Assembly: GCF_002355855.1 (NCBI RefSeq)
Contig: NZ_AP017655.1
Coordinates: 2,793,001 to 2,857,000, forward strand
Direction: 5' to 3'
Length of the DNA: 64,000 bases
Origin: Sphingobium cloacae
Lineage (GTDB): Bacteria > Pseudomonadota > Alphaproteobacteria > Sphingomonadales > Sphingomonadaceae
Shown: piece by piece, positions 35,563 to 57,637 of the stretch
How positions within the stretch are numbered: position 1 is the stretch's first letter
Layout of the letters: each line of letters opens with the position of its first letter
The notes under the pieces: generated by a model
Told to the model about the DNA's origin: nothing
Database searches by the model: none
The model's input: the letters and a program-made list of their open reading frames with translations, nothing else
Made by a program: the position numbers and the translations under genes

Positions 35563-36423
35563 TCAGCCGTGATGGAGATCGGGCTTTTCCTTTGCTGGCG
35601 GGCGGCCGCGCCGTTTCGGCAAGGGCGGCGGGTTGATGGACGGTGCCATGCGCGCATGCTCGGGCAGGAGGTCGGCGTGCTGTCGCATGCGATAGCTGGA
35701 GCCCTCGATCTGGATGACCACAGCGTGGTGAAGAAGGCGGTCGAGCAGCGCGGTGGCCACCACCGGATCGCCAAAGACATCACCCCATTCGGCGAAGCCG
35801 CGGTTGGATGTCAGGATCATGGCACCCTTTTCGTATCGGGCGTTGACGAGCTGGAAGAAGAGATTGCCGCCGCCGGGCGTGACGGGAAGATACCCGATCT
35901 CGTCGACGACGAGCAGGGAGGATCGGCATAGGAAGCGGATCTTCTCGCGCAACGTGCCCTCGCGTTCAGCCTTGGTCAGTGAAGCGATCAGATCGGCGAG
36001 CGGGATGAAGTAGACGCTCTTGCCCGCCTTCACGGCCTCGACGGCAAGGGCCGTGGCGATATGGCTTTTCCCGGTACCGGGCGGGCCCAGCAGATGCACC
36101 ACCTCGGCCCGGTTGATGAAGTCCAGGCCAGCGAGCGCCAGGATGCGGTTCCTGTCGAGCGATGGCTGGAAGGAGAAGTCATATCCGTCCAGCGTCTTGA
36201 TGATCGGCAGCCTTGCCATGCGCAGGGCTGCCTTGATCCTGCGGTTCTCCCGGAGCGACAGTTCTTCGTTCAGCAATATGTCGATGGCCTCGATGCCATC
36301 GATTTTGCCCTGCTCTATGCCGCGCAGGGTGGCGTCGAGCATCTCCAGGGCGCGTGGCATTTTGAGATGGACGAGGCTGCGGCGGATATTATCGACGCGG
36401 GATGCGGCACCCCCATGGTTCAT
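35563..36423 (-). CDS. istB: IS21 helper ATPase IstB
   Basis: 286 residues. DnaA-like AAA+ ATPase with Walker A HLLGPPGTGKSHIATALAVE and Walker B SLLVVDEIGYLPVTPGGGN; GAMILTSNRGFAEWGDVFGD is family-typical. It regulates IstA and target choice. The start overlaps the istA stop by 4 bp. The C-terminus ends in a basic proline-rich tail. Confidence 0.95.
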   Translation of the reverse strand: MNHGGAASRVDNIRRSLVHLKMPRALEMLDATLRGIEQGKIDGIEAIDILLNEELSLRENRRIKAALRMARLPIIKTLDGYDFSFQPSLDRNRILALAGLDFINRAEVVHLLGPPGTGKSHIATALAVEAVKAGKSVYFIPLADLIASLTKAEREGTLREKIRFLCRSSLLVVDEIGYLPVTPGGGNLFFQLVNARYEKGAMILTSNRGFAEWGDVFGDPVVATALLDRLLHHAVVIQIEGSSYRMRQHADLLPEHARMAPSINPPPLPKRRGRPPAKEKPDLHHG

Positions 36424-37727: not shown

Positions 37728-37769
37728 TCATCTCATTCTGCCGGGGCTAGCCCCGGCAGAATGAGATGA
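37728..37769. repeat. 42-bp perfect palindrome upstream of istA
   Basis: The sequence centred between 37748 and 37749 (…GCCGGGGCTAGCCCCGGC…) is fully self-complementary over 42 bases, starting TCATCTCATTC and ending in its reverse complement. It lies between the right IS end and the istA start. In RNA it would make a very stable hairpin that may block readthrough from the helicase gene into istA. Confidence 0.85.
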
Positions 37770-39532: not shown

Positions 39533-40417
39533 TCATAGCTGAAGCTCTGCCTTTTCAAGCGCAGCTTCAGTTTCCTTGCGGTTTATTGTTACGATATGCT
39601 GCGTGTACGCGCTTTGCTTTGCGGCATCGGCAAGCAAACCGAGGCGCTTCAAGACATAGAAGAGCATCGCATATCGAACCGTGAGCACGCCGTTACCGTG
39701 ATCCAGCCCGTAATCCTTGGCGACAACCTGCTTCTGGCTGGCCGTAAGCGCGGGGTGCGGACCGATCTGTACGTCGAAATAATTGTTCCAGAGCCAGTCC
39801 CGTTCACCCGCTTCTCCCGGTTCGCCCTTTTCGCCAACTTCCAGAATGCGTGGCAGCAGGAAATCTTTGAACTTGTGCTCAAGGTGGCAATAGGCCCGCG
39901 CGTGCCAACGAAAGCCGTCATAGCCAAAGGCGTGAGGCGTGATGCGGCGCCAGATAGGCTCTGGGCGCACCTTGTTCATCGATTGATAGAAAACGTCGAT
40001 TGAGACGCCTGCGCGGGTGGCATCGAGAATTTTGCGTAGGACTTCGATATCGATGTCGCGCCGGGGAGTCATTGCGACATCGGCGCTGGGCAGCTCAGCG
40101 ATCCACGAATCGCTTGCAGGAATGGCCCCTTCGGCGACCGAGCGAAGCTGGGAGAGATAGATGTAGGGGTCCGGCTCAAGGAAGCGCAGAACGAACTTTG
40201 CGGCCGCGACATAGCGCTTGGCGCGAGTATCATACTCCATATTTCCTGGCGCGCGCTCTTGATAGAGCGTCAGATCTTTTGATGCTTGGGGCACCGACAC
40301 GCCAAACGTCTCGACGAGATCGGCACGGTTGATTGACCCCTCCCAGAACAGCCGAAATTCAATGAATTCAAGCCGGCGCTCCACCCCCCATTTCAGCGTC
40401 GTTGCGGCTTCTGCCAT
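39533..40417 (-). CDS. WYL-domain transcriptional regulator (BrxR/CapW-like)
   Basis: 294 residues from ATG 40417 (MAEAATTLKWGVERRLEFIE); an upstream ATG would add 24 unlikely residues. N-terminal winged helix: LFWEGSINRADLVETFGVSV, then PQASKDLTLYQERAPGNMEY. WYL domain: GVSIDVFYQSMNKVRPEPIW, then ITPHAFGYDGFRWHARAYC. A C-terminal extension completes the BrxR-type layout. Such proteins repress phage-defence operons and respond to a ligand. It is the first gene of the minus-strand operon and faces the AddB-like gene across 223 bp. Confidence 0.88.
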   Translation of the reverse strand: MAEAATTLKWGVERRLEFIEFRLFWEGSINRADLVETFGVSVPQASKDLTLYQERAPGNMEYDTRAKRYVAAAKFVLRFLEPDPYIYLSQLRSVAEGAIPASDSWIAELPSADVAMTPRRDIDIEVLRKILDATRAGVSIDVFYQSMNKVRPEPIWRRITPHAFGYDGFRWHARAYCHLEHKFKDFLLPRILEVGEKGEPGEAGERDWLWNNYFDVQIGPHPALTASQKQVVAKDYGLDHGNGVLTVRYAMLFYVLKRLGLLADAAKQSAYTQHIVTINRKETEAALEKAELQL

Positions 40418-40640
40418 CTTGGCCTCGCATAAGTAAGAATAAAAACTATATGGACATGCCGTATCGATCCGTGTAATTATTATTCCCATATTGAGCTACA
40501 GTCAATGGGCTATCGGGTGCAGAGATGGAGCAAGACATGCATCAACAGGGCTTGAAATGTCAGACCATCTGCGCGCGGGCGGCATCCGCCGCCACTGGTG
40601 TGACGCCCGGCAGTAAACGATTCCTGAAAGGAGAGCGGCA
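40418..40640. promoter_or_regulatory. Divergent promoter region between the two defence operons
   Basis: 223 bp with no gene. The part next to the WYL start is much more AT-rich than its surroundings (AAGTAAGAATAAAAACTATA, then GTGTAATTATTATTCCCATA), suggesting promoters and operators for both directions. I found no perfect operator palindrome by eye. GGAGAG sits 6 bases before the AddB-like ATG. Confidence 0.6.
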
Positions 40641-43295
40641 ATGACCATTGCGCATCGATCCACCCTGATCGTTCACGGCCGCCTTGCGATGCGGGAGAGC
40701 CGGTTGGCCGCCGGTCGTGACGCTCGCCACGGTCTCCAGATCATGTCCTTCGAGCAGGCCGCTGTCCGCCTCGCTGGTGGCTTCGTCCGTCCGATCGATG
40801 ATGAAAGCCTGCGCTCGGCCATTCAGGCAGCCATTCCGGCGACACCGATGGGTGAGTTGGAGAGCATCAAGACGCTTCCTGGCATGATCGACGCTGCTGC
40901 GGACACGCTGCACAAAGCCTGGCGCGCGGGGATCGATCTTGCTGGGCGCTCGGCCGATCATCCGCGCCTCGCTGCCATCGCTCGCCTAGAAGCGGCGGTC
41001 CTGGATCAACTGCCCACCGCCATGATGCGGCCAGTTGACATTGTCGCCGCCGCGATGGCCCGCATCGGCCATGCACCGGCAGTCCTCGGCCCGGTGGAAA
41101 TCACTGGCCTTACCGAACTATCGCCTTGCTGGCGGCCCTTGCTCCAAGCCCTCACCGACCACATCCCAGTGCAGTGGACGGCTGGCCCGAGGGGCATTCC
41201 TGCATGGCTGGAGGGCATGGGCGTCACTATCGCGCGGGCGCCGGCAGGAGCCCCGGAGATCAGTGCCGTCAGCGCCGCGACCTCCTATCACGAAGCTGTT
41301 GAGGCGATGCGCTGGGCGCGAGGCCTGCTGGCATCGGGCGTCTCGCCCTCGGAGATCGCCATCGCGACGGCCTCGCCTGCGGACTATGACGATCATTTCC
41401 TGGCATTGCGCGCTGACGCCAATATCGACCTCCATTTCGTCCACGGTGTCCGAACCGTCGCCACCCGGGAAGGCCAGGCAGCCGCAGCGCTCGCCGACAT
41501 TGTCGTTCGTGGGCTGTCACAATCACGGCTGCGGCGCCTTGCTGCTCTATGCCGGGAAAGCGCACCTTTCGAAGCGCTACCTGATGGCTGGCTGCGTGTT
41601 TTGCCCGCAGATGCGCCGCTTTCTACGGAAGGCGCCTGGAGCCGCGTGCTCACTCGGTTGACGCCTGAGCACTGGCCTGACGGCAAGGATCACGCCCCGG
41701 CGCTCCGCGCCGCTGTCGATGTTCTGGCGAAAGGGCCGGACGCCGCCAGCGAAATCGGTGAGGCCTTTCTCTCTGGCCGGGGGCTCGCAATCTGGCGTAA
41801 GGCACTGGTGGCTGGCCCCGCCGCCTCGATCGACGCAACTCTAGAGACCCTGAAACAGGACGATGGACTGGAGGCCTGCGTCTCTATCGTCTGGATGCCT
41901 GCCAGCGCGCTAGCGTCGTCGCCGCGCCGCTTCGTGCGTCTTCTCGGGCTGAATTCTTCGCGCTGGCCGCGTGGGATCGCCGAGGATCGGCTCATTCCCG
42001 ACCATATCATCTCAACTCCGGTTCTCGATCCCTTGCCGGTCAATCTCGCCGACCGCCGTGACTTCGAGACAATCCTCGCCACGACAGCCGATACCGTCGT
42101 TCTCTCGCGCGCCAGACGCGACAGTGATGGCCGTCTCCTGGGACGCAGCCCATTGCTCGCTGGACGCGGCGACGAAATCTACCTCCGCCGCAATGCGATT
42201 CCAACGCATGCCTTCAGCGAGACCGATCGCCTCATGGGCCGGCCAAAGGAGTTCGCTGCCGACCCGCAAGCGATCGGCGCACAGGGCTGCTGGCACGACT
42301 GGAGGCAGGCGGATATCACTCCTCATGACGGTCTGGTGCGTGCGGACCATCCACTTGTTCTCGCCATCCTCAACCGCACCCAGTCAGCCAGCTCACTGCG
42401 GCGCCTGCTGCGCAATCCACTCAGCTTCGTCTGGGTCTATGCGTTCGGCTGGCGTGAACCACAGAGCAGCGCCGAACCACTCGTCCTCGACGCGCTCGGA
42501 ATTGGCGATCTCGTCCACATGGTTCTCGACCGCGCCTTGCGTGACCTCGAAGCCGCAGGTGGGCTTGCAGCCGCTGACGCGCAATCCATCGAAGTCGCGG
42601 TGACACAGGCCGTTCAGGCTGTCGCTGCGGATTGGGAAAGCGAACGGCCGGTTCCGCCGACGGTCATTTGGGGGCGAACCCTCGACGATGCCCGCGTCCT
42701 GGCAGGCCGGGCTCTGTCCTACGGCGATGCCCTATTGCCGGGCACGCGCTCCTACGGAGAGGTGCCTTTTGGCGGATCGGAAGCCAAAACCGCAACCGAG
42801 GCTCCGTGGGATACGAGCACGCCAGTCACGATCCCCGACACTGGCTTCAACATCGCCGGCTATATCGACCGGATCGACATATCCGGCGACGGCAAGCGTG
42901 CGATGGTGCGCGACTATAAAACAGGTCGTCCACCGCGCGGGGACATCCAGCTGAATGGCGGACGCGAGCTTCAGCGTTGCCTCTATGCCTTCGCAGTGAA
43001 AGCGCTTCTCGGCGATGACGTCGCCATCAGCGCCTCGCTGCTGTATCCGCGCGAGCCGATTGATCTCCATCTCGATGATCCAGAGGCGGTGCTCGCGCAG
43101 ATCACGGGCTATCTCCGCGCGGCACGGGCAAGTTTTGCTGGCGGCGCGGCTCTGCCTGGTCCGGATACCGGCGGCGATTATGACGATCTCGCCTTTGCCC
43201 TGCCGGCGAATGCCAGCGCTACCTATTGCAAACGCAAAATGCCCGCTGTGACGGAACGGCTGGGCGAAGTCGCTCAGGTCTGGGAGGCGGAATGA
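40641..43295 (+). CDS. AddB-like PD-(D/E)XK nuclease
   Basis: 884 residues. No Walker A motif is visible; the body has an inactive SF1-helicase-like layout as in AddB (AAALADIVVRGLSQSRLRRL, VRLLGLNSSRWPRGIAEDRL). The RecB/AddB-type nuclease motif lies near residue 755: GYIDRIDISGDGKRAMVRDY-KTG followed by ELQRCLYAFAVKALLG, giving D...D-x-K and the Q-x3-Y element. The four-cysteine Fe-S set of classical AddB was not seen. The stop overlaps the AddA-like start. It may act with that protein in end-processing of foreign or broken DNA. Confidence 0.82.
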   Translation: MTIAHRSTLIVHGRLAMRESRLAAGRDARHGLQIMSFEQAAVRLAGGFVRPIDDESLRSAIQAAIPATPMGELESIKTLPGMIDAAADTLHKAWRAGIDLAGRSADHPRLAAIARLEAAVLDQLPTAMMRPVDIVAAAMARIGHAPAVLGPVEITGLTELSPCWRPLLQALTDHIPVQWTAGPRGIPAWLEGMGVTIARAPAGAPEISAVSAATSYHEAVEAMRWARGLLASGVSPSEIAIATASPADYDDHFLALRADANIDLHFVHGVRTVATREGQAAAALADIVVRGLSQSRLRRLAALCRESAPFEALPDGWLRVLPADAPLSTEGAWSRVLTRLTPEHWPDGKDHAPALRAAVDVLAKGPDAASEIGEAFLSGRGLAIWRKALVAGPAASIDATLETLKQDDGLEACVSIVWMPASALASSPRRFVRLLGLNSSRWPRGIAEDRLIPDHIISTPVLDPLPVNLADRRDFETILATTADTVVLSRARRDSDGRLLGRSPLLAGRGDEIYLRRNAIPTHAFSETDRLMGRPKEFAADPQAIGAQGCWHDWRQADITPHDGLVRADHPLVLAILNRTQSASSLRRLLRNPLSFVWVYAFGWREPQSSAEPLVLDALGIGDLVHMVLDRALRDLEAAGGLAAADAQSIEVAVTQAVQAVAADWESERPVPPTVIWGRTLDDARVLAGRALSYGDALLPGTRSYGEVPFGGSEAKTATEAPWDTSTPVTIPDTGFNIAGYIDRIDISGDGKRAMVRDYKTGRPPRGDIQLNGGRELQRCLYAFAVKALLGDDVAISASLLYPREPIDLHLDDPEAVLAQITGYLRAARASFAGGAALPGPDTGGDYDDLAFALPANASATYCKRKMPAVTERLGEVAQVWEAE

Positions 43296-46200
43296 TGAGC
43301 AACATGTCCAAAGTGCTGAAAGATGACGGTGCACGCCGCGATGCGATCAGCCTTCACGATCGTTCGATCCTGGTCGAGGCTGGTGCGGGTTCAGGCAAGA
43401 CCGCGGTGATGGCAGGGCGCATCGCCGCCATGTTGGCCGAAGGCGTCGCGCCGCGCTCCATCGCCGCCGTCACCTTCACCGAACTCGCGGCGAGTGAGCT
43501 ACTTTCGCGCGTCCGCGAATTTGTCGCCGATCTGTCGGCCGGCACGATCGCAACCGAACTGCGCGTGGCTCTGCCCGATGGGCTGTCCCAGGCCCATCGC
43601 GACAATCTCACCGCCGCTAGCGCCGCGATCGACGAAATCACCTGCTCGACGATCCACGGTTTCTGCCAGCGGCTGATCAAGCCCTATCCGGCGGAAGCCG
43701 ACATCGATCCCGGCGCCGGCGTGATGGATCGCAACCAGGCCGATCTCACCTTCCTGGAGATCGTCGATGGCTGGCTGCGCGAACGCCTGTCAGGCGGCCA
43801 GGGCGGCGTCCTGGCTGAAATGGTGCTACACAGCCCCGGCGAAACCGTGGCGCTCATCCACAAGATCGCCGAAAATCTGCGCCGCCGCCCCACGCTTACC
43901 GCGCCGCTCGTTTCCCCGCTCGAGGGACACCTGACAGCGTTCCGGCAGGCCGTGGCGGATTTTGCAGGTTTCCTGGATGGCATCGCGGCGGTCGAACCGG
44001 AAACGGTGACAATCGCCGAGCAGCTCGCCGAGATGGCGACCGCTGTGGCGGATGGTCCCGATCCCGCCACGTCTGCGGGTCTCATCTGGCTTCTGACCTC
44101 GCGGCCCCATCCGGATCTTTGTAAAAAAGACGGCACTTTCTACTCCTACCGCAAGAAGGGCAAATGGGCGGCCGCCGCAAAGCAGGCCGGCCTTGCCAAG
44201 GCTGACGGGGACCGGCTGAATGACGCAGCCGACGCCCACTATGCGGCCTGCTGTGAAAGCTGGATATCGCTTGTGCAGTCCGCCGCCGGCCACGCCCTGG
44301 CGGCGTTGATGGACGAAGCACGGCCGATCCTGCAACGCTATCGCGAGCACAAGCGTGCCAGCGCGCAGCTTGATTTCGATGATCTGATTTTCGCCGCACG
44401 CGATCTGCTGCGCGATCATGATGCTGTGCGCCGTTCGCTGGGGCAGCGTTTCGCTCATGTCCTCGTCGACGAATTTCAGGACACCGACCCGCTACAAACC
44501 GAAATCTTCTGGCGGCTCTGCGGCGAGCCGGTCGATGGCGAGGACGATTGGACCCAGTTCCGAATCCGACCGGGTGCGCTGTTTCTGGTCGGTGATCCCA
44601 AGCAGGCCATCTACCGCTTCCGGGGCGCCGATGTCGGCGCCTATGTGCAAGCGCGCGACGCCTTTCGCGACCAGAATCCAGACAGCCTCTTGTCTATCTC
44701 CACCAACTTCCGCTCCTGCGGCTCGATCCTCACCTTCGTCAACGAGCGCTTCGAAGCCGTTCTCTCGGCTGATGGGCAGCCTGGCTTCACCGCTCTCGAC
44801 TCCTTCCACGAGGACCGGGGCGGCCTGTGCGTGGCAGCCCTCGACATCGCCGTGGCTGACGAAAACGGCAAAGCCAGTGCAGAAAAGCAGCGCGACGCCG
44901 AAGCCGACGCGATCGCGCAGCTATGCGCCCAGCTCATCGAAAGCCACCCTATTATCGACCGTCGCAGCGGTGCGGAACGGCCCTGCCTGCCAGGCGACAT
45001 CGCCTTGCTGGCACCGACCGGCGCAGAGCTATGGCGCTACGAGGAAGCTTTGGAGCGTCGCGGCATCCCCGTGGCAACCCAAGCTGGCAAGGGGCTATTC
45101 CGTCGCCAGGAAATCCAGGACCTGATCGCACTGAGCCGCGTCCTCGCCGATCGGCGCGACACGCTCGCGCTCGGCGCGCTGCTGCGCGGCCCCCTGGTCG
45201 GCCTCACAGAGGAAGAGCTTCTGGACATCATCTGGGGACTTCCGCGCACGGAGGAACAGCCAGATCGGATTCCGCGCCTGGATCTCAACGTCGACCCCTC
45301 CGCCATCGCGCACCCGCTGGCGCGGGAAATCATCGAGCGGCTGCAATCGCTCTCCCGGCGTGTCAACAGCACGACCCCGCACGAGCTGCTATCTCAGGCC
45401 GTGGATGTCATGCGCGTCCGACCGCTTCTCCTCGAGCGTCATCGCGGCCAAGCCGAGCGCGCACTCGCCAATGTCGATCTCTATCTCAGCCTGTCGACAG
45501 GCTATGCCGTGCGCGGTCTGCGCGCCTTCGCGGAAGCCATGACAGCAGCATGGTCCGACGAGGCGCGCGCCGTTGAGGGACGGCCTGACGCGCAAGAGGA
45601 AGCGGTTGCGCTGTTTACCATGCATGCGGCCAAGGGGCTGGAATGGCCGATCGTCATTCCAATCAATACCATGACCGGCGTCATGGCACCCGAAAGCGCT
45701 GTCATCGACCGTCAGGCCGAGACCTTTTATTGTCCCGTTCTCGGCGTTGCGCCTGAGGGCTACGAAACGGTACGCCAAGCCGAAAAGGAAGAACTGGACC
45801 GCGAACGCATCCGCCTGTGGTATGTCGCCGCAACGCGCGCTCGCGAGCTTCTCGTTCTCCCGCGGCTCGACATCACGCCGTCGAAATCAGCGTGGATCGG
45901 TCTTGTCGATCTGTCGCTCGCCGATCTTCCAGCCCTCGACGCTTCGCACTTGCCGGCGGGTTTTACGACGACTGCTGCTGGCGTGGCCAACCCCCAGACG
46001 CGCGCAAGTTTCGCCGCGGAAGCCGAAACCATTGCCGCCGGTCAAACCCGGCTGACTTGGCTTGCTCCCAGCCGCGACGAAAGCGCCGCCGGACGCGTTC
46101 TGCGAGAAGAAGAACCCTCGCTCTGGACAGGATCGGCTGATGACCTGCCCCAGGAGCTGGAGACCACCGCTCAGGTGCAAGGCGGCCGCGAACGCGGCTT

Positions 46201-46681
46201 GATCCTCCATAAGCTCATGGAAGAGGTGCTGACCGGCGAAACGGATGAGGCCGAAGCCACTCTGACCGACCGTGCCGCTGATCTTATTCGCGCCTTCGGC
46301 AAAGTCCCTGTTGCAGATCCGGCCACCGGGCTTTGCGCTGGAGAGCTGGCCGGCTGCGTCGCGCGAACCCTTGCATTGCCGGAGATCGCCGCTCTCCGGC
46401 CGGAGCTGCTCGCCGAATTTCCTGTCTATGCGCTATATGGCGAAGGCTCAGAACTGGTGGCAACGGCGGGCATTGCTGATGCACTGACCATTGGCAGCGA
46501 CGGTCGGCCGGTTGCAGTGGTCGACTGGAAGAGCGACGTGAACCCCAACGCTCAGACGCTCGACCACTATCGGGCTCAGGTCAGCGCCTATCTCGACATG
46601 ACCGACGCCGATCGCGGACTGATCGTGCTGATGACCTCGGGGCGGATCATTGAGGTTCAGGCAAGTGCAGCGATTTCGTAA
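43292..46681 (+). CDS. AddA-like UvrD/RecB helicase-nuclease
   Basis: 1,129 residues from ATG 43292, chosen because GGGAGGCGGA precedes it and it overlaps the upstream stop. Walker A is LVEAGAGSGKTAVMAGRIAA at ~29, motif II is VLVDEFQDTDPLQTEIFWRL at ~390, motif V region is TMHAAKGLEWPIVIPINTM and motif VI is LWYVAATRARELLVLPRL. The C-terminal RecB nuclease has VAVVDWKSDVNPNAQTLDHY at ~1075. This is a complete AddA-like protein. It pairs with the AddB-like protein; both keep nuclease motifs, as in AddAB. Confidence 0.9.
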   Translation: MMSNMSKVLKDDGARRDAISLHDRSILVEAGAGSGKTAVMAGRIAAMLAEGVAPRSIAAVTFTELAASELLSRVREFVADLSAGTIATELRVALPDGLSQAHRDNLTAASAAIDEITCSTIHGFCQRLIKPYPAEADIDPGAGVMDRNQADLTFLEIVDGWLRERLSGGQGGVLAEMVLHSPGETVALIHKIAENLRRRPTLTAPLVSPLEGHLTAFRQAVADFAGFLDGIAAVEPETVTIAEQLAEMATAVADGPDPATSAGLIWLLTSRPHPDLCKKDGTFYSYRKKGKWAAAAKQAGLAKADGDRLNDAADAHYAACCESWISLVQSAAGHALAALMDEARPILQRYREHKRASAQLDFDDLIFAARDLLRDHDAVRRSLGQRFAHVLVDEFQDTDPLQTEIFWRLCGEPVDGEDDWTQFRIRPGALFLVGDPKQAIYRFRGADVGAYVQARDAFRDQNPDSLLSISTNFRSCGSILTFVNERFEAVLSADGQPGFTALDSFHEDRGGLCVAALDIAVADENGKASAEKQRDAEADAIAQLCAQLIESHPIIDRRSGAERPCLPGDIALLAPTGAELWRYEEALERRGIPVATQAGKGLFRRQEIQDLIALSRVLADRRDTLALGALLRGPLVGLTEEELLDIIWGLPRTEEQPDRIPRLDLNVDPSAIAHPLAREIIERLQSLSRRVNSTTPHELLSQAVDVMRVRPLLLERHRGQAERALANVDLYLSLSTGYAVRGLRAFAEAMTAAWSDEARAVEGRPDAQEEAVALFTMHAAKGLEWPIVIPINTMTGVMAPESAVIDRQAETFYCPVLGVAPEGYETVRQAEKEELDRERIRLWYVAATRARELLVLPRLDITPSKSAWIGLVDLSLADLPALDASHLPAGFTTTAAGVANPQTRASFAAEAETIAAGQTRLTWLAPSRDESAAGRVLREEEPSLWTGSADDLPQELETTAQVQGGRERGLILHKLMEEVLTGETDEAEATLTDRAADLIRAFGKVPVADPATGLCAGELAGCVARTLALPEIAALRPELLAEFPVYALYGEGSELVATAGIADALTIGSDGRPVAVVDWKSDVNPNAQTLDHYRAQVSAYLDMTDADRGLIVLMTSGRIIEVQASAAIS

Positions 46682-46800
46682 CATGAAAAGGAGGCAGTGA
46701 GGATCGAACTGGCTGCGGCGAGTAAGAAAATCAAAATCTTGAGGTAGTTATTCTGGACTTCGGGCAACTGGCTTACCAAGGTGAACGTCCATCGGGGGGA

Positions 46801-49482
46801 ATGGCTTTGAGTTTGAGTGTCAACGAACACACCAGCGATATTGCAAGAGAAGCTTTGGCTATCTTCGATAATGTTGCGACAGGTGCAAAAGCGGAACTGG
46901 CGCGCTTCAAAGGCCCGTCGGCCGAAAGCCTCGCCCCCTTGAATACGCTCACCACCGAGAAGGCCGTAGCGAAGCTCAATGAAATCGGCCGCGAGATACT
47001 CAACGGTCACCAGATCCTGTCGCGCGAGCCGGCTATTGCCAGGGTGATCGCGGCTGACGAATCTGACAACATAACGACATTCTACATTTCCCGTTTCGCG
47101 CCCTCCGGTTTGCGCGATTCCAAGGTGCGTTTTGCCAGTTACAACGCTCCAGTCGGTCGCCTCGCGTCACTGCGCCCCGGCGGGTATATCGAGGTGCCGG
47201 GCGGCTCCCTGGAAGTGCTGGAACGGACGGTGTTTCACGCGGAGGCCCTGCCTGTCGGCTGGGACTCTCTGGACACGATATTCGAGGCAGATGGCCAGAA
47301 GACCGTCACTGTCACCTCATTGCTACGGCTGCTTTCCGAGCGCGATGCCCCCGCAGATGCGCTCGACGAGATTGAGCGGATGCTCAAAGACGCCGAGGTC
47401 GACGACAACGTCACCATTGGGCGGAAGCGCGGGATCATCGACAAGATGCAGCTTCGCGATCAGGCGGTGCTCGATGAATATCAAGATGCGATCTTCCGAT
47501 TGTCGCTGGACTCGCAGCTTCTGATCCTTGGTCCTCCCGGAACAGGAAAAACGACTACGCTCATCCGCCGATTGGGGCAAAAACTCGACCCACACGGCCT
47601 CAGTGACGATGAGCAGAGCCTGATCGACGTTTCGCCTTCGCCTCTGCCGCATGGCCAAAGCTGGATCATGTTCACGCCGACTGATCTGCTGGGACAATAT
47701 CTCAAAGAGGCATTCAGCCGAAACAACGTGCCTGCGCCGGACCTGCGGATCAAAACGTGGATCGGACATCGAAAGGAACTCGCGCGCAATCACCTCTCGA
47801 TTTTGCGCACGGCAAATGGCGGCGGCCCCTTCATTTTGAAGGATAACGCTGCCACCATCACCCCGGATGCCGTGCAATCACCGATCGAGTGGTTCGAGCA
47901 ATTCCAAACCAAGCAGAACAGCGACTTTTGGTCTGGCCTGGAAGGTGCTGCGGCAATTTTATCTTCGGCTACGGACGCAGAAATCGCAAAGCTTGGTGAC
48001 CGTCTTCGCGCCGCTGTTCAGAGCGCCCAGACTACCTCCGCTGCAAGCGGCATCTATGCGCTTGTCTCACTCAGCGAAGACGTTCGCCGCGTTCTTGGCC
48101 GTGTTCGAGCAGACGTCGACGGCGTGCTGAAAACTGCGCTTGCTCGGGCTCAGGCCGGTGCGCGCACGCAGGGCGAGAATTTTTTCGAGCAGCTTATCGC
48201 CTTTCTCGACACCCTGGATGATCAGACAGATCAGGCCGACGACGATCTCGATGACGAGGAAGAGGAAGAGGAGGATCGTCCGACGAACAAGCCGGCTGCG
48301 GCGCAACGGGCCTATTATGCGGCCCTGCGGTTGCAGGCGCGTTCAAAGGCACGTCGCCGGTCAGCGAGTTCCCGCAGCGCGCTGGTTCTCGACTGGATTG
48401 GTGATCGAGGCTTAACTGATACCGAGGCCAGCGGATTGGCTGAACGATTGGGCTGGCAATTGTCCCTCAATCGCTTCAGCGCCCCCGTCCGCCAATATCT
48501 GGGCAAGGTTCCGGCTCGATACAGGCAATTCAGGAGGAGTGAGCGAGGCGGGCGTTGGTATCCCGACGGAAATCCGGGCCGTGACCTTCATCCTCTGGAG
48601 GCAGACCTTATCATTCTGGCCATGCTTCGCGCTGGAAACGCGCTGATGGCAGATAATCGGGTGCGGCGGAATATAGATCAATCCGCCTATGAGTCCCTTC
48701 GCGCGCTGTACGACATCCAGCGCAATCAGATTCTCGTGGACGAGGCGCCCGATTTCTCGCCGGTTCAGCTCGCCTGCATGCGAGCACTGGCGATCGAACC
48801 TATCGGGTCATTTTTCGCATGCGGCGATTTCAATCAGCGCATCACAGATTGGGGGAGCCGAAGCGAAGAAAGTCTCCAGTGGGTTGAACCATCGCTCCAG
48901 ATTCAAAGAATTTCGATCGCCTATCGGCAAAGCCGTCAGCTTAACGATCTGGCTAAAGCATTGGCTGACCCGGCAAGCGGGAACCAGTCTGATGCTGATT
49001 TGCCGGAGGACGTGAACAACGATGCCGTGTCACCAGTGATGGCTTCCGGTCTTTCCGAGCCCGAGGACGTGGCTCTCTGGCTCAGTCAGCGCCTCTCCGA
49101 AATCGAGCGGTCAGTGTCCCCGCGACCGCTCCCTTCCATCGCGATTTTGGTGCCTGAAGAAGCGGCAGTTCGCCCAATAACAGATGCCTTGAACGCGGTC
49201 ATTGAAGATCAAAACCTCCATGCGGTCGCTTGCGTTGATGGAAAAATAATCGGCCGGGATGATGAGATCCGCGTATTTGACGTTCGCCATATCAAGGGCC
49301 TCGAGTTTGAGGCTGTTTTCTTTGTCGGGGTGGACAGATTGGCGGCATCGGAGCCGTCACTGTTTGAGCGCTATCTCTATGTCGGCGCGACGCGTGCGGC
49401 GACATATCTAGGAATGTGTGCCGACGACGAAATCCCCCCGTCATTAGCCCGCCTGAGCGATCACTTTGGCGAGCGCTGGTAG
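46801..49482 (+). CDS. SF1 (UvrD-like) helicase with defence-island context
   Basis: 893 residues. An N-terminal ~230-residue domain is unrecognised. Walker A is LILGPPGTGKTTTLIRRLGQ at ~242. An acidic run (DDDLDDEEEEEEDRP) lies near 480. Motif II is ILVDEAPDFSPVQLACMRAL at ~644, then SIAYRQSRQLNDLAKALAD, VRHIKGLEFEAVFFVGVDRL and YLYVGATRAATYLGM. The order is that of UvrD-type SF1 enzymes, but the A-P-D-F replacement in motif II differs from the usual DEFQD. A 119-bp gap separates it from the AddA-like gene. Confidence 0.8.
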   Translation: MALSLSVNEHTSDIAREALAIFDNVATGAKAELARFKGPSAESLAPLNTLTTEKAVAKLNEIGREILNGHQILSREPAIARVIAADESDNITTFYISRFAPSGLRDSKVRFASYNAPVGRLASLRPGGYIEVPGGSLEVLERTVFHAEALPVGWDSLDTIFEADGQKTVTVTSLLRLLSERDAPADALDEIERMLKDAEVDDNVTIGRKRGIIDKMQLRDQAVLDEYQDAIFRLSLDSQLLILGPPGTGKTTTLIRRLGQKLDPHGLSDDEQSLIDVSPSPLPHGQSWIMFTPTDLLGQYLKEAFSRNNVPAPDLRIKTWIGHRKELARNHLSILRTANGGGPFILKDNAATITPDAVQSPIEWFEQFQTKQNSDFWSGLEGAAAILSSATDAEIAKLGDRLRAAVQSAQTTSAASGIYALVSLSEDVRRVLGRVRADVDGVLKTALARAQAGARTQGENFFEQLIAFLDTLDDQTDQADDDLDDEEEEEEDRPTNKPAAAQRAYYAALRLQARSKARRRSASSRSALVLDWIGDRGLTDTEASGLAERLGWQLSLNRFSAPVRQYLGKVPARYRQFRRSERGGRWYPDGNPGRDLHPLEADLIILAMLRAGNALMADNRVRRNIDQSAYESLRALYDIQRNQILVDEAPDFSPVQLACMRALAIEPIGSFFACGDFNQRITDWGSRSEESLQWVEPSLQIQRISIAYRQSRQLNDLAKALADPASGNQSDADLPEDVNNDAVSPVMASGLSEPEDVALWLSQRLSEIERSVSPRPLPSIAILVPEEAAVRPITDALNAVIEDQNLHAVACVDGKIIGRDDEIRVFDVRHIKGLEFEAVFFVGVDRLAASEPSLFERYLYVGATRAATYLGMCADDEIPPSLARLSDHFGERW

Positions 49483-49575
49483 CCAACTTCCTATCCCGAT
49501 CCGTATCGCGGCGAGCTGAGAACCTCGGATCGCCGCGTCGACCTCACAGTATCGATAAAAAGGCATCAAAGCAGG

Positions 49576-50760
49576 ATGTCGTCACTAGCTTGGATAGATT
49601 TCGACGAAGCTGAGCGGCAGCGCGCCCAGCGGATCATGGAGCTTTTCCAGGAACGCGAAACTCGCGACGAACTGGGACTGGGTGCCATTCGCGATTCCAT
49701 TGCCGACCATCTCTTTCCCGGGACCAGCACAATCCAGACCCGGCTGCGCTATATGCTGTTCATTCCCTGGCTGTTTCAGATGATCGAAGGATCATCGGTC
49801 GGTTCGGATCAGCTCGCCCGCGAAGCAAGATCGCTGGAGATCCGGCTCGTCAACGCGCTCAAGGCTGGCGGGGAATCGAATGGGGTCATCGGCCGCGATG
49901 CCGGCGCGAACCTCCAGCGCCTGCCCAGTTCGGTCTATTGGGCCGGCTTGGGGAGCTGGGGCATACGCTTATTTCCCGGTTCGACTGACAATCTCTTTAC
50001 CTCGATGCGCCACCTTCAGCGCAGCCGCCCGCGCGTGCGCGAAAGCGAGGATGCGGCATCCGAACGCCAGGCCTTGCAGATCTGGACGCCGACGCTGCCG
50101 CAGTGTCCCAACGATCTGCTCGATGCGGCGCATTTCAAGCTCTCCTCGGACGAAGCGCAGTTTGTCGTCGATCGACTGGTCGCCACTCACCCGGACAGCT
50201 TGCTGACCTTTTTGGCCCGTAGCGGTGACGGCGAGGCAGAGTGCGACAACATCTGGGAACATCCCCAGCTTGCCAATTTCCCTGCCGTTCCCCGCCGCCT
50301 GGTCGAGCACGCGGCGCTTTTTTCCAGCGTGATGCACGGAGCGTCGCTTCTTTACAATTTGCTGCTTAGCAGGCTGCGGGATCGATCCGAATGGATCGAA
50401 CGCTATGAGACAAGGCTGGCCGACTGGCGTGCGGGCCTCGACATGGCGGCCATCCGCGCCTGGTCGCTCGACGCATTTTGGCAGGCCATTGAGCATCCGG
50501 CACATGGCATTCGACCTGCGGCCAAACGGTTCGTTACCGACTGGTTGGGATTACTGACCTCCGAAGGTATCGGGGACAGCCTGACGGCGCCGGCTAGCCG
50601 CCTCGTGCAGGAGCGCGAACGGCGGCTCAAAACCAATCAGTCGCGCTTCGTGAACCGAGCCGTGCGGGACAGGTGGACTGGCGCATCAGGTGCCGAGCCG
50701 CTCAGCTTCCGCTGGTCGCAAGCCCACTCACATCTGCGGGATCTGGCCCATGTTGAATAG
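49576..50760 (+). CDS. DUF6361 family protein
   Basis: 394 residues. It opens MSSLAWIDFDEAERQRAQRI, then MELFQERETRDELGLGAIRD and SIADHLFPGTSTIQTRLRYM, a pattern I recognise as DUF6361. No catalytic motif is evident; the protein is mainly helical. DUF6361 genes are typically found directly before a phospholipase-D-like gene and a large helicase, as here. The stop overlaps the PLD gene start by 11 bp. The function is unknown. Confidence 0.82.
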   Translation: MSSLAWIDFDEAERQRAQRIMELFQERETRDELGLGAIRDSIADHLFPGTSTIQTRLRYMLFIPWLFQMIEGSSVGSDQLAREARSLEIRLVNALKAGGESNGVIGRDAGANLQRLPSSVYWAGLGSWGIRLFPGSTDNLFTSMRHLQRSRPRVRESEDAASERQALQIWTPTLPQCPNDLLDAAHFKLSSDEAQFVVDRLVATHPDSLLTFLARSGDGEAECDNIWEHPQLANFPAVPRRLVEHAALFSSVMHGASLLYNLLLSRLRDRSEWIERYETRLADWRAGLDMAAIRAWSLDAFWQAIEHPAHGIRPAAKRFVTDWLGLLTSEGIGDSLTAPASRLVQERERRLKTNQSRFVNRAVRDRWTGASGAEPLSFRWSQAHSHLRDLAHVE

Positions 50761-52606
50761 GCCCACCCTCGATCCCGAAACCCGCGTGCTCTACGGCGAC
50801 AGCCTTCAACCGCCGCCGGGCTATGTTTTCGATGCCGCCGTCGCGACCACTTTCTCGCTCGACTTTGAGACTGCGCTCGCAGCGCCGGTCAGCCTGGCTC
50901 TGTTCGCGGCTGAAAATCGCGATGATATTCTGACCCATCCACTCGCCCTGCTAGAAGGTGCGGAACGGATTGCCGGCAGGCTCGTCGTTTATGCCGATGC
51001 CGGGCACCTTCACGCCCAGGGACGACCTCACTCTCGCCTTTGCTCTTTGTTGGAGCGTATCATTGTCGAAGTCGCAGCGCCTCGCGGTGGCGCATTTCAT
51101 CCCAAACTCTGGGCGCTGCGCTATCGTCCGATCCGAGCGGGCGATCCGACCCTGCTGCGCCTGCTTATTCTTTCCCGGAACCTGACGCGCGACCGTTCGT
51201 GGGACATCTCGCTCCGCCTCGATGGCAAACTTACACGACGGGTCGATGCCGAGAACCGGCCGCTGTTCGACCTCGTCAACAGCTTGCCGGACCTTGCGGT
51301 TACCGAGGTCTCGCAAGATGCGCGGGAACTGACAAATTCGGTGGCACAGGATCTGCGACGCGCCGAGTGGACGCTTCCCGAGCGGTTCGATGAGGTTCGT
51401 TTTGCGGTAAACGGTTTCAGCAACAAGGTCTGGCAGCCGGAGCCATGCGCACGGCTCGGCATCATTTCGCCATTCTGCGACGGCCAGGCCCTTGAACTGC
51501 TCCGTAACTTATCACGGGCCGAGCCGAGACTGCTAAGCCGGCCCGACGAGCTGGCATGTATCGATGCGGATGTCCTGGAGCGCTTTGAACAGGTGGCCGT
51601 GCTCGATGAAATGGCCGCCAGTGAGGATGGTGAGGAGGACGCCTCGCCCAATGCGATTCAGGGCCTTCACGCCAAGGCATTCATCGCAGAGGTGAGTTGG
51701 GACACCGTGCTTACCGTGGGATCGGGCAACGCGACCCGTCCGGCACTTATTTCAGGCAACAATGTCGAACTCTTCGCTTCGCTCAAGGGTAAGCGTTCCA
51801 AGGTTGGCAGCGTCGATGACATCATGGGCGAGAAAGGCTTTGGCCGGCTTACCCGGACCTATGAACGCAGCGAATTGGCCCCTGTCGATGCGGCCACCAA
51901 ATCGGCCGAGTTGCGGCTTGACGAAGCCCGCCGCGCTTTGTGCCGTGGCGGATTACGTCTGCGGTGCGAGCGGATCGAAGACCAGGACAGCGAGGCGTTG
52001 TGGCGGGTCTGGCTGATCCCCGTTGAGCCTATCGTGCTCGCAGGCGTGGCCGCGCTCAGCATATGGCCGATTACCCGCGGCGATGGGCATGCCCGCGATG
52101 GCTTAGCCGCCCTGCGCGAGGGTGTTGCGGTCGATTTGGGAGCCATGCCCTTGGTCGATCTTACCCGGTTTCTCGCCTTTCGCCTGGAGGCCGAGGACGG
52201 CCTTGCATCCGCATTGTTTAGTACGGGGCTCGTTATGGATGGGCTCCCGTCCGAACGGCACGCAGCCATCCTTCGCTGGGTCATTGATAGCCGGGGTGCG
52301 TTTTTCCGCTATCTGCGCCTCCTCCTCTCGGAGCTGGGCGATCCCTTCGGTGCGGCTCTGGCGGCACAGGAAGGCGGCGGAGGTGGCGGATGGGAAGCGG
52401 CCGCCGACGATGCGCCGCTATTAGAAGACATGGTCCGCGCGCTCTGCCGGGGCGGCGAGCGTCTTCATGCCATCGAGCGCCTGATGACCCGGCTGGAGGC
52501 CGGCGGGGAAGACCCCGTGGGCAATCCAATTCCGCCGGAATTCCGCACACTCTGGGAAGCATTTCGTATCGCACTACAGGATCGGGGAGACGGCCGTGCC
52601 AGATAG
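50750..52606 (+). CDS. Phospholipase-D-type nuclease
   Basis: 618 residues from ATG 50750 (MLNRPTLDPETRVLYGDSLQ). Two HKD-type half-sites are visible: GAFHPKLWALRYRPIRAGDP, then RLLILSRNLTRDRSWD at ~116, and GLHAKAFIAEVSWDTVLTVG-SGNATRPAL at ~306. PLD nucleases of this kind cut DNA in several defence systems (DrmC of DISARM is a known example). A C-terminal ~250-residue region has no recognised domain. It is coupled to the DUF6361 and helicase genes. Confidence 0.85.
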   Translation: MLNRPTLDPETRVLYGDSLQPPPGYVFDAAVATTFSLDFETALAAPVSLALFAAENRDDILTHPLALLEGAERIAGRLVVYADAGHLHAQGRPHSRLCSLLERIIVEVAAPRGGAFHPKLWALRYRPIRAGDPTLLRLLILSRNLTRDRSWDISLRLDGKLTRRVDAENRPLFDLVNSLPDLAVTEVSQDARELTNSVAQDLRRAEWTLPERFDEVRFAVNGFSNKVWQPEPCARLGIISPFCDGQALELLRNLSRAEPRLLSRPDELACIDADVLERFEQVAVLDEMAASEDGEEDASPNAIQGLHAKAFIAEVSWDTVLTVGSGNATRPALISGNNVELFASLKGKRSKVGSVDDIMGEKGFGRLTRTYERSELAPVDAATKSAELRLDEARRALCRGGLRLRCERIEDQDSEALWRVWLIPVEPIVLAGVAALSIWPITRGDGHARDGLAALREGVAVDLGAMPLVDLTRFLAFRLEAEDGLASALFSTGLVMDGLPSERHAAILRWVIDSRGAFFRYLRLLLSELGDPFGAALAAQEGGGGGGWEAAADDAPLLEDMVRALCRGGERLHAIERLMTRLEAGGEDPVGNPIPPEFRTLWEAFRIALQDRGDGRAR

Positions 52607-55600
52607 CAGATTTGAAGCTGCTGCCGCGCTGGCGCCGCTCAAGGCCTTCCAGCGTCGGACTGTCGATTATGTGTTTGACCGGCTTTACGGAGAGCAGGAT
52701 CCTGTCAGGCAGTTTCTCGTCGCCGATGAGGTAGGCCTGGGCAAGACGATGGTTGCACGCGGCGTCATTGCGCGAACGATCGAAAAACTCTGGGACACGA
52801 CCGACCGCATCGACATTCTTTACATCTGCTCAAACCAGGCCATTGCCGCACAGAATCTCAACCGCCTCAACGTCCTTGGCCGTAAGGAATTGGCGCTCCC
52901 CACACGCATGACCCTCATCCCGTTGCAAGTCCGCGGCGACCAGGGCCTCGATGCCAATAAGGTGAATTTCATCAGCCTGACGCCGGGCACGACATTCGAT
53001 CTGAAATCAACCACCGGTGTAACCCAGGAACGCGCACTTTTGCTGCGGATGTTGGAGGACCGCGTTTCCAGGCCGCGTGGTCTGCACAATCTGCTTCAGG
53101 TGAGCGCCGGCGTCACGGGATGGAACGGCGCCGTGAGCGACCTGTCGCTCAAGGGTGTTGACCCGCGGATTGTCGAACGCTTCCGCCGTGATGTCGAAGC
53201 AGACACTGATCTATTCGAGGAACTGGAGGCGGTATGCGACCTCTTTCCCCGGCGCCGGGAGACCTATCCTCACGAGCTTAACCAGCGGCGAAACGCGCTG
53301 GTCGGACGTCTGCGCGGAAAGCTTTCCCATGCGTGTATCGACGCCCTGAAGCCGGATCTGATCATCATGGACGAGTTTCAGCGGTTTCGCGATCTCCTCC
53401 ATGGCAAGACGCCTGCGGCCGAACTGGCTCAGGAGCTGTTCGACTATTCCGATGGTTCAGGCCTTGGCGCACGTACCTTGCTGCTGTCGGCTACCCCTTA
53501 TCGGATGCTCACTCTTTCCGGCGATGAACCCGATGACGGCGAGCATTATCGTGATTTTCTCGAAACGCTCTCCTTCCTTTACGGCAAGGCCAATGGACCT
53601 GAAATCGCCCAGACGCTGGAACGCGAGATGCGGGCGTTTCGCGGCTTCCTCCACGCGCTGCCCGGATCCCGTCCAGAAGCCATCACGGCCCGCCAGACGA
53701 TCGAGGGCCGCCTGCGGCGGGTGATTGCACGCACTGAACGGGTGGCGAGTACGATCGAGCGAGATTCCATGGTCAGCGAACCGCCGATGACCATCTCCAT
53801 ACAACCTGCCGATCTTCGCCAGGCAACCGTCGTTTCCGACGTCGCCCGCGCGCTCGAAGCGCCGGAAATTACCGAGTATTGGAAATCGGCGCCCTATCTC
53901 CTCAATTTCATGCGCGATTATGCGCTCAAACGCCTTCTGAGGGATAAGCTAGACAAACCTGCGCCCGAACTGCGCGAAGCCCTGGAGCAGGCCCGGCCAG
54001 CGATGCTCGATCACGAGGCGCTCGCCAATTATGCGCCATTGGAACCTGCCAATGGCCGCATGCGCGGGCTGATGGACGAGATGTTCGCGGACGATCTCGA
54101 ACAGCATCTTTGGATCCCGCCTTCGCTGCCCTATTATGGACCAGAGCGGAAGGGGGCGCCGCTTACCAAGGCGCTGATCTTTTCGTCATGGTCGATGGTG
54201 CCCGATGCGATCGCAGCGATCCTATCATATGAAGCGGAACGCCGCATGGGTGTCGGTGCCACGGGGCACCGCTATTTCGACCGAGTGCGCCCACGCCCCA
54301 TTCAGTTCCGACAAGCACAGGAGCGCCTGGTCGCGATGCGCGCGCTGCATCTTGTTTATCCCTCGCCAACACTCGCGCAGCTTGCCGACCCCCGAGAAAT
54401 CTTCGGTCAGACCACCCAACGGCTGACCTATGAGGCGATGCGTCAGGCTGTCGCCGAACGTCTGCGTGCAAGCGTGGCGGCACTCGAGGCTCGGACGGGA
54501 GACGCATCGGACGGCCGCGATTGGGAATGGGCCGCACCCGCCGTGATTGACGCGGTCGCGGGTGCGCGCTCGGTCTCCTGGGTGACAACGTCCTATGGCT
54601 TTGCCGCGCTTGGCAATGAAGAAGGCTTCAAGGAGCATGTTGCCGAACTTCGCACCGCTGCCGGTGACAGGCTGTTTGGTGCAGTGCCCGACACGCTCAT
54701 CGATCTTCTCACCGACATCGCGCTCGGAAGCCCTGCCGTGTGTGCCTTGCGAGCCTTGCAACGGGTCGCGCCCGACATGGCACTGGACGACCATCGGCTG
54801 CTCAACGCCGCGAGCCAGATCGCTTGGGGATTTCGCACGCTATTCAACCAGCACGATGCCGTCGCACTGCTGCGCAAGGGCGATGACGATCGCTACTGGC
54901 ATCGCGTGCTGACTTTCAGCGCCGAGCACAATCTCCAGGCCGTCCTCGACGAATATGTCCATTATCTCGTTGACGCCGAAGGGCTTGGCGCACGCCCGTC
55001 CGCAGATCGGATTGCCGGGATCAGCCGGGCGATCTCAGACGCGCTTTCGATCCGGCCTTCGCAGATCGATGTGGAAGACCCGCGCGTCGAAGGCAAGAAG
55101 CTCGTTATCGGTAAGTTCCAGATGCGCGGACGCTTCGCCATGCGGTTGTCCGACTATAAGGACGAGGAAGGCGGCGCGGCACGGTTGGGCAGCGTTCGCG
55201 ATGCCTTCAACTCGCCGTTTCGTCCCTTCGCTTTGGCGACCACATCGGTCGGCCAGGAGGGGCTCGATTTTCACCCCTACTGCTATCGGCTTTACCATTG
55301 GAACCTGCCCGGCAATCCGGTTGATCTCGAACAGCGCGAGGGACGGGTTCATCGCTTCAAGGGCCATGCAATCCGGCTCAATCTGGCGTTTAATCAAACC
55401 GATGTCGTGCGCGGTGCAGGCGCGGACAAGGGTGACCCTTGGCAGGCCATGTTCAACGCCGCGCGCGCTGAAGCTGCGGTCGATTCCGACCTCATCCCCT
55501 ATTGGATCTATGAGGGACCGGTTAAGGTTGAACGGCGCGTTCCAACGCTGCCATTCAGCCGCGAGGTGCGCCGATTGGAATGGCTCAAACGGAGCCTGAC

Positions 55601-55724
55601 CCTCTATCGTCTAGCCTTCGGTCAGCCACGGCAGGAAGATTTGCTGGAATATCTGCACTCCCTTCTGGGCTCGGACATGAGCGCAGAAGACCTGGCCGAG
55701 CTTCAAATCCAGCTTCAGCCGTAA
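52596..55724 (+). CDS. Large SF2 (SNF2/DEAD-like) helicase
   Basis: 1,042 residues from a GTG start (GGGGAGACGGCC upstream) overlapping the PLD stop by 11 bp. Walker A is FLVADEVGLGKTMVARGVIA at ~42. Motif II is LIIMDEFQRFRDLLHGKTPA at ~257, then TLLLSATPYRMLTLSGDEP. Motifs V-VI are TTSVGQEGLDFHPYCYRLYH and DLEQREGRVHRFKGHAIRLN near 900. The ~400-residue insert between the two RecA-like domains is unusually long. It probably translocates on DNA for the PLD nuclease. Confidence 0.87.
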   Translation: MPDSRFEAAAALAPLKAFQRRTVDYVFDRLYGEQDPVRQFLVADEVGLGKTMVARGVIARTIEKLWDTTDRIDILYICSNQAIAAQNLNRLNVLGRKELALPTRMTLIPLQVRGDQGLDANKVNFISLTPGTTFDLKSTTGVTQERALLLRMLEDRVSRPRGLHNLLQVSAGVTGWNGAVSDLSLKGVDPRIVERFRRDVEADTDLFEELEAVCDLFPRRRETYPHELNQRRNALVGRLRGKLSHACIDALKPDLIIMDEFQRFRDLLHGKTPAAELAQELFDYSDGSGLGARTLLLSATPYRMLTLSGDEPDDGEHYRDFLETLSFLYGKANGPEIAQTLEREMRAFRGFLHALPGSRPEAITARQTIEGRLRRVIARTERVASTIERDSMVSEPPMTISIQPADLRQATVVSDVARALEAPEITEYWKSAPYLLNFMRDYALKRLLRDKLDKPAPELREALEQARPAMLDHEALANYAPLEPANGRMRGLMDEMFADDLEQHLWIPPSLPYYGPERKGAPLTKALIFSSWSMVPDAIAAILSYEAERRMGVGATGHRYFDRVRPRPIQFRQAQERLVAMRALHLVYPSPTLAQLADPREIFGQTTQRLTYEAMRQAVAERLRASVAALEARTGDASDGRDWEWAAPAVIDAVAGARSVSWVTTSYGFAALGNEEGFKEHVAELRTAAGDRLFGAVPDTLIDLLTDIALGSPAVCALRALQRVAPDMALDDHRLLNAASQIAWGFRTLFNQHDAVALLRKGDDDRYWHRVLTFSAEHNLQAVLDEYVHYLVDAEGLGARPSADRIAGISRAISDALSIRPSQIDVEDPRVEGKKLVIGKFQMRGRFAMRLSDYKDEEGGAARLGSVRDAFNSPFRPFALATTSVGQEGLDFHPYCYRLYHWNLPGNPVDLEQREGRVHRFKGHAIRLNLAFNQTDVVRGAGADKGDPWQAMFNAARAEAAVDSDLIPYWIYEGPVKVERRVPTLPFSREVRRLEWLKRSLTLYRLAFGQPRQEDLLEYLHSLLGSDMSAEDLAELQIQLQP

Positions 55725-57579: not shown

Positions 57580-57582
57580 GGA

Positions 57583-57611: not shown

Positions 57612-57637
57612 CCCACTGATGGACGTGATGGGCAAGA

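Follow-up and report, generated by a model that had tools for sequence, protein, structure and literature searches.

In the 64,000-nucleotide stretch of Sphingobium cloacae DNA analysed here (contig NZ_AP017655.1, forward strand positions 2,793,001 to 2,857,000; 'the window', from whose first letter positions are counted below), six large genes lie on one strand at 40641..55724. Judged from their sequences, the first two encode an AddB-AddA helicase-nuclease pair that is distinct from the AddAB of the host, and the last three are Azaca, an already named phage-defence system. The gene contents of related loci suggest that the pair, hereafter AddBA, is a mobile, defence-dedicated core in a two-sided defence island, used as a plug-in hub by many cassettes, a reading that we consider about equally likely to hold or to fail. 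AddBA would occupy the centre of this island, with Azaca and an extra superfamily 1 (SF1) helicase to the right on the same strand and, to the left across a divergent WYL regulator gene, an Hma system broken by an IS21-family insertion sequence.

The AddB-AddA pair and Azaca

All six open reading frames (ORFs) are intact and lie on the plus strand, in the same-strand arrangement and at the place given by an earlier note made from the letters alone, and their domains agree with those it had assigned. The core of the module is formed by the AddB-like nuclease subunit (40641..43295, 884 amino acids; Pfam PDDEXK_1, 1.7e-16) and the AddA-like SF1 helicase-nuclease subunit (43292..46681, 1129 amino acids; UvrD and PDDEXK_1). 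A UvrD/HelD-like SF1 helicase (46801..49482, 893 amino acids; UvrD_C_2 and UvrD) separates AddA from ZacA (49576..50760, 394 amino acids; DUF6361, PF19888 at 287.7 bits), which is followed by ZacB, a phospholipase D (PLD)-type nuclease (50750..52606), and by the superfamily 2 (SF2) helicase ZacC (52596..55724, 1042 amino acids; DEAD, with Helicase_C below its cut-off). The stop/start overlaps described in the same note were confirmed when the junctions were read. AddB and AddA share an ATGA, the start of AddA being taken as ATG 43292 and not TTG 43226, and overlaps of 11 bp join ZacA to ZacB (start ATG 50750, not GTG 50690) and ZacB to ZacC. The SF1 gene is the odd one, set off without overlap by spacers of 119 bp on its 5' side and 93 bp on its 3' side.

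AddA of the window possesses a Walker A motif, DEFQDTD, GDPKQAI, KGLE and VDWK, that is, SF1A helicase motifs and a C-terminal PDDEXK nuclease. Across 69 AddA sequences including that of the window, Walker A and DExQDT were present in all 69 and the VDWK-type nuclease motif in 68. AddB of the window has GYIDR and DYK and is without Walker A; among 78 AddB sequences, again including the window, the Walker A pattern occurred in none, the IDRxD-type motif in all 78 and the DYK-type motif in 75. These motifs, together with a low-confidence predicted fold, indicate a helicase-like part followed by a C-terminal nuclease. AddB gave no match to any PADLOC family, nor to PDB sequences, whether searched as a single sequence or as a profile. 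Its predicted model was of low confidence (predicted local distance difference test, pLDDT, 61.6; predicted template modelling score, pTM, 0.34), and in a Foldseek search of the PDB five of the six best matches were AddB chains of solved AddAB structures, the sixth being AdnA. PADLOC matches of AddA were mainly generic UvrD-type among the best 25 of 47.

The pair was considered as the housekeeping copy of the host and this was ruled out. A separate host AddAB was found in G000:C1:833001-846000 (G000 being the window's genome), with an AddB of 991 and an AddA of 1147 amino acids; window and host AddA share 29% identity, and the two AddB proteins match clearly over only 51 residues around the nuclease motif. 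Against the NCBI equivalog addA_alphas, window AddA scored 301.6 bits, below the cut-off of 860.75. AddB of B. subtilis carries iron-sulphur cysteines. The corresponding set was not found in the AddB of the window and its relatives, where the invariant or nearly invariant columns hold two cysteines only, C780 and C863. Lack of these cysteines was dropped as a sign of specialisation, since the host AddB, by eye, also lacks an evident set, so that they do not separate the two proteins.

The last three genes are assigned to Azaca because they are full length, adjacent, on the same strand and in the same order (49576-55724). ZacA matched its PADLOC profile at 446 bits (residues 2-392), ZacB at 568 bits over nearly the whole profile and ZacC at 1155 bits (residues 6-1042). 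ZacB had no Pfam match at 1e-3, PLDc_2 appearing only at E 0.35, and contains two HxK motifs and one GSGN of the GSxN type. ZacC contains GLGKT, DE and QREGRVHR, the last of the QxxGRxxR type. The predicted fold of ZacA (pLDDT 65.2) had a best PDB match of E 1.4. The suggestion that no named system covers the gene set is thus superseded for these three genes. What stands of the proposed under-described defence system is an apparent defence locus in which an AddAB-like degrader forms one module and a PLD/helicase part, identified as Azaca, the other. In three publications, the Azaca helicase is named ZacC (PMC12278908), a PLD domain is reported for the system (PMC10952713), and Azaca is counted among systems of unknown mechanism (PMC10482375).

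Neighbourhoods of related AddB genes

A profile scan of genome contigs with an AddB alignment yielded 258 relatives, from which the best 80 loci were kept, with flanks of at most 10 kb to the left and right; going by the titles of their records, 76 are from Alphaproteobacteria. AddA followed AddB in 78 of the 80, the sequence ending at that point in L078 and L135, and co-directional Azaca followed AddBA in 21 of the 80 without any flank-length filter. These frequencies exclude chance. Conservation of the core is high, with 83-89% identity among the best 120 relatives, which span several orders. Among plasmid records with AddB (E <=1e-20), 39 of 60 were typed as conjugative; no relatives of AddB or ZacA on viral contigs were confirmed.

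Flanks were labelled by mapping the window genes and by clustering the ORFs, cluster representatives being identified with PADLOC and Pfam. Counts were made at fixed lengths of at least 4 kb on the left (66 loci) and at least 2 kb on the right (64 loci), which excluded 14 loci on the left and 16 on the right, among which a cassette had been recognised in 4 and 3, respectively. A known system was present on the left in 47 of 66: Hma in 21, BREX in 10, multiubiquitin/ThiF in 9, type III restriction-modification (RM) carrying an HKD-SNF2 helicase in 5, and Shango in 2. The remainder comprised an unassigned gene pair (2) and 'other' (17). On the right, co-directional Azaca was found in 20 of 64, either directly after AddA (16, including distant copies at 27-44% identity and one degenerate copy, L108), after the SF1 helicase (2) or after C6, a ResIII-type helicase of 1113 amino acids (2). 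C6 stood with distant Zac-like genes in 6 and without co-directional Azaca in 14; the rest carried gene u27 (3), SIR2-HerA (2), reversed Shango (2), SF1 alone (2), reversed Azaca (1) or 'other' content (14). Eight large proteins, picked by size among 12 candidates from seven loci with 'other' flanks, all had a PADLOC match with an E-value of 1e-10 or lower, two of them to BrxC and one each to JetC3 (Wadjet), LmuB/mad3, type III Res, HamB (Hachiman), ZorD (Zorya) and GajA (Gabija). The LmuB/mad3 match (85 bits) may instead be an SbcC-like repair protein. In 16 arbitrary 20-kb alphaproteobacterial stretches, none matched any of the cassette queries.

A WYL-domain regulator gene (39533..40489, minus strand; Pfam WYL) lies between Hma and AddB in the window, divergent from AddB, and of the 71 loci with a left flank above 1.5 kb, 49 have a minus-strand WYL gene to the left of AddB. 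Among loci whose AddB is at least 78% identical, WYL identity was 81-97% beside Hma, 60-65% beside BREX and 51% beside type III RM; by this measure, the WYL protein travels with the left cassette. A search for an operator between WYL and AddB revealed only weak inverted repeats.

A quick AddB tree was built from 83 proteins: that of the window, those of 5 plasmids and those of 77 among the 80 loci. The left label required at least 23 changes in 74 rows, against a mean of 43.0 after shuffling; for the right label, with 73 rows, the figures were 33 and 45.5. With 'other' excluded, at least 16 changes were needed on the left (55 rows; shuffle mean 28.3) and 24 on the right (58 rows; shuffle mean 33.3). 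Comparison with the shuffle means indicates that cassettes change often and are also partly inherited. Tree neighbours with different cassettes include L094 (BREX) and L120 (Hma), and L072 (SF1 and Azaca) and L080 (C6 and Zac-like genes). The spacing between the core and its cassettes was often short: 4 bp from AddA to ZacA in 7 of 17 direct Azaca loci and 18-240 bp, measured to the match start, in the other 10; 14 bp from AddA to the C6 helicase in 17 of 23; and 2 bp from SngC to AddB in all 6 checked.

Linkage of AddBA to Azaca was also assessed from the other side. Of 385 alphaproteobacterial genomes, 7 contained DUF6361 and 9 contained AddB, 6 genomes having both (Fisher p 1.3e-10, each genome being treated as independent). 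Sampling Azaca genomes regardless of AddB gave 11, namely these 7 from the class sample and 4 further ones from the phylum sample. AddBA of the window's family was directly upstream of Azaca in four of them (G000, G175 (L022), G271 and G025, in the last of which a contig end leaves no more than a fragment of AddA), and a distant AddBA pair in one, G668 (L158). AddBA lies near Azaca in convergent order in G547 and probably in G060, there split over two contigs, the ZacA relatives of both being distant (29-30%). In G288 a contig end cuts the neighbourhood off. On plasmids, 32 records carried ZacC at >=40% identity over >=98%; AddB was within 10 kb of ZacC on 10 of the 12 alphaproteobacterial ones. 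The contrast with the plasmids of other groups gave a Fisher p of 1e-6, several records being near copies of each other. The most informative case is L158 (G668:C1:852001-872000), which has the order AddB-AddA-ZacA-ZacB-ZacC with operon-like overlaps (ATGA and TGATG) at AddB/AddA and AddA/ZacA; a BLAST comparison of its AddB with that of the window gave nothing clear (best E 0.029), and its AddA shares 29% identity. With this second pair directly before ZacABC, AddBA and Azaca may have been combined on more than one occasion.

Between AddA and ZacA, an SF1 gene is rarely inserted. The same six genes in the same order were found in L056 (98-99% identity) and L072 (86-96%), the only two of the 80 AddB loci, besides the window, with SF1 and Azaca; two others have SF1 without Azaca. 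In the remaining 19 of the 21 AddBA-Azaca loci SF1 is absent, and the gene after AddA is either ZacA, at a distance of 4-240 bp, or that of another helicase. The six genes are therefore not one conserved set, and the count that the earlier note had proposed came out divided, the coupling of AddBA to Azaca recurring in Alphaproteobacteria but SF1 rarely being kept (2 of 21). SF1 was also tried as a linked part in its own right and rejected; 5 of the 385 genomes carry it, and just one of these, that of the window, also has AddB (Fisher p 0.11). With Azaca it was seen in 1 of the 11 Azaca genomes, the window itself.

SF1 had a weak match to HelD in the PDB and mainly generic UvrD-type matches in PADLOC. 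Close relatives were few, with 6 other proteins at >=59% identity among the best 120 of 1729. Relatives at 44-46% were found in L019 and L029, within type III RM operons that also encode an HKD-SNF2 helicase and DUF4391, and in L017 and L018, beside weak BrxC and PglX matches (25-27%). Five relatives were on viral contigs, two of these (L020 and L021) without a known cassette. A GreA/GreB-like stretch was weak in the relatives (E 0.0099 in L017, 0.21 in L019, 0.24 in L042), and none was listed for the window protein. On this pattern, SF1 is best seen as a helicase picked up by several defence operons, in the window at the place that C6 holds elsewhere. A paralogue (38-40%) is encoded in an ARMADA-like operon at G000:C1:2756704-2771444 (in L042), upstream of the window and 62-77 kb from the AddB gene, with an Eco57I-type methyltransferase, an SNF2 helicase and a 1718-amino-acid helicase with an MZB domain. 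This operon resembles ARMADA as described in PMC12458937.

Several further gene sets were observed in the surveyed loci. A multiubiquitin operon lies upstream of AddBA in L079, L083-L085, L089, L092, L097, L098, L112 and on plasmid L023; ThiF was detected in all but L089, the operon has its own UvrD-type protein of about 1133 amino acids, and two further genes had no Pfam match. In L059, L077, L082, L091, L094 and L120 a ZacC-like helicase (31-32%) on the opposite strand faces AddBA from the right, past C6, and is possibly a divergent type of Azaca. L095 and L124 have a gene pair at the left place beside WYL-AddBA, which in L095 encodes 2154 (cut by the locus end) and 562 amino acids.

Proposed function of the AddBA core and rival explanations

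The protein families suggest how the island might act. ZacC would translocate on invading DNA while ZacB nicks or cuts it, and ZacA may be a partner or sensor. AddBA would then load on the resulting ends or gaps, unwind the DNA and degrade it with its two PDDEXK domains, needing neither the host AddAB nor control by Chi. The RecBCD-type enzymes of the host are a frequent target of phage inhibition, and a separate AddBA copy could for this reason serve as a spare shredder common to different cassettes, a private enzyme that might escape inhibitors aimed at RecBCD-type enzymes. We tentatively propose, with some leaning to doubt, that AddBA is a portable Chi-independent DNA-shredding hub of immunity, resistant to inhibitors of the host enzyme, between two sockets that take different sensors and cutters. 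The right socket would accept Azaca, a ResIII-type helicase or SIR2-HerA, and the left Hma, BREX, type III RM, multiubiquitin/ThiF or Shango.

Several observations weigh against the core-and-cassette reading. ZacA stands without AddBA beside it in 3 of the 11 Azaca genomes (G065, G582, G516), and no AddB (E <=1e-20) was found on the 20 other ZacC plasmids (19 Cronobacter, 1 Halomarina); Azaca thus does not need AddBA, and the occurrence of the last three genes without the first three, which the earlier note had named as grounds for rejecting its six-gene system, is in part observed. AddBA beside cassettes without Azaca likewise means that their link could be island company only. As the cassette queries were drawn from AddBA flanks, the 16 control stretches, which were not matched mobile-element controls, show only that such genes are not everywhere. 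Many flanks fall in the 'other' class (17 of 66 left, 14 of 64 right), phylogenetic inertia of the cassette labels leaves fewer swaps than random, and the AddB model is weak, its structural matches having TM-scores near 0.2.

Some of these points would equally suit a stand-alone AddBA that degrades the ends of phage or plasmid DNA and was gathered into islands without functional coupling. The neighbours are many unrelated systems, Azaca occurs elsewhere without AddBA and cassettes are swapped frequently. We nevertheless regard this explanation as rather unlikely, given the operon-tight spacing on both sides (7 loci with 4 bp between AddA and ZacA, 6 with 2 bp between SngC and AddB), the distantly related AddBA pair at the same place before Azaca, and the strong co-occurrence of Azaca and AddB in Alphaproteobacteria.

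Alternatively, AddBA may serve the mobile element, as a recombination or repair enzyme that aids conjugative establishment or the exchange of cassettes beside it. The proportion of conjugative AddB plasmids (39 of 60) would fit, as would the conserved core (83-89% among the best 120 relatives) with variable flanks that a recombination anchor would show. Since the nameable neighbours are defence genes, the host already has its own AddAB, and a DNA-end degrader might threaten incoming element DNA too, this seems improbable. The single dedicated six-gene machine of the earlier note, kept in the same order in L056 and L072, is very improbable in view of SF1 being missing from 19 of 21 AddBA-Azaca loci, the unrelated cassettes on both sides of AddBA, and the SF1 relatives in type III RM, BREX-like and ARMADA-like operons.

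If AddBA is a shared core as proposed, many separately named defence systems have one physical partner in common, overlooked by annotation tools because of its resemblance to ordinary DNA repair. Such a partner would explain the cooperation of different systems and offer a common target for phage counter-defence, and the clustering and synergy of defence systems would become directly testable through one two-gene core.

Surroundings in the window and comparison with named systems

Azaca, Hma and Shango are said to have been first described by Millman (2022) and Gao (2020). The defence operon that the earlier note had placed next to the six genes was identified as Hma, the left cassette of the window and a system separate from Azaca and AddBA, on the minus strand at 25581-39510. 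It comprises the ATPase HmaC (25581..28877; PADLOC, 953 bits), the methyltransferase HmaB (28891..31689; 1253 bits) and HmaA, whose gene (33655-39510) is split by an IS21-family istA/istB pair (35563..37682, minus strand; IstB_IS21, rve and Mu-transpos_C_2) into an N-terminal part (37747..39510; 823 bits, profile 3-569 of 1176) and a C-terminal part (33655..35475; 753 bits, profile 568-1172 of 1176). With hmaA interrupted in this way, Hma is probably not active in this strain. Between hmaB and hmaA, at 31686-33658, are a DUF4917 gene (PADLOC PDC-S21, 340 bits) and a gene for a protein of 326 amino acids with relatives at the same place in L091, L114 and L118.

The conjugative setting also held up. 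Three left-hand genes of the window were scanned and encode a RepA-type initiator, a conjugative coupling protein and a TrbE/VirB4-type ATPase. To the right of Azaca, the window (55726-64000; L044) carries a HipA-like kinase, a ParB-like protein, a serine recombinase and a UvrD helicase with a zinc ribbon; just beyond the window end, on the minus strand, lie relatives of ThiF (37%) and multiubiquitin (28%).

Membership of DISARM, whose logic the earlier note had seen in the PLD nuclease and SF2 helicase, was rejected. The DrmA-DrmB-DrmC core was not found: neither DrmB nor DrmC was listed as a match for any of the eight proteins scanned (for AddA, among the best 25 of 47), and ZacC gave only weak helicase-motif matches to DrmD and DrmA. 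Gabija (GajA and GajB) likewise does not account for the genes, no GajA match being listed among the same eight proteins (AddA again among the best 25 of 47); AddA and SF1 did match GajB, which is taken to reflect a general likeness among UvrD proteins. DISARM, Gabija and ARMADA have SF1/SF2 helicases and PLD or nuclease domains in common with the window genes, and the ARMADA-like set of the window's genome differs in being a separate locus.

To known Azaca the window set is alike in its three-gene order and near full-length PADLOC matches. DUF6361, PLD and helicase genes are annotated in the same order on Cronobacter plasmid pESA3, there without AddBA, whereas the window set is preceded by AddB-AddA and, as rarely elsewhere, by the SF1 helicase. 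Azaca is therefore the part already known. The part that appears new is the AddBA core with interchangeable cassettes; the literature search, which reached its sources in part, met no description of such a core or of an AddAB pair serving several defence systems in common, and the terms AddA and AddB do not occur in PMC12458937 or PMC12839542.

The window pair resembles AddAB/RecBCD in that AddA has helicase and nuclease motifs and AddB a helicase-like part without Walker A and a C-terminal PDDEXK domain; it differs in being situated on plasmids and islands among defence cassettes and in not being the host copy. The closest functional parallel may be RecBCD-dependent synergy, in which the joint action of two defence systems depends on an AddAB/RecBCD-type helicase-nuclease. 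There the hub is the host's own RecBCD, whereas the island of the window would bring its own enzyme.

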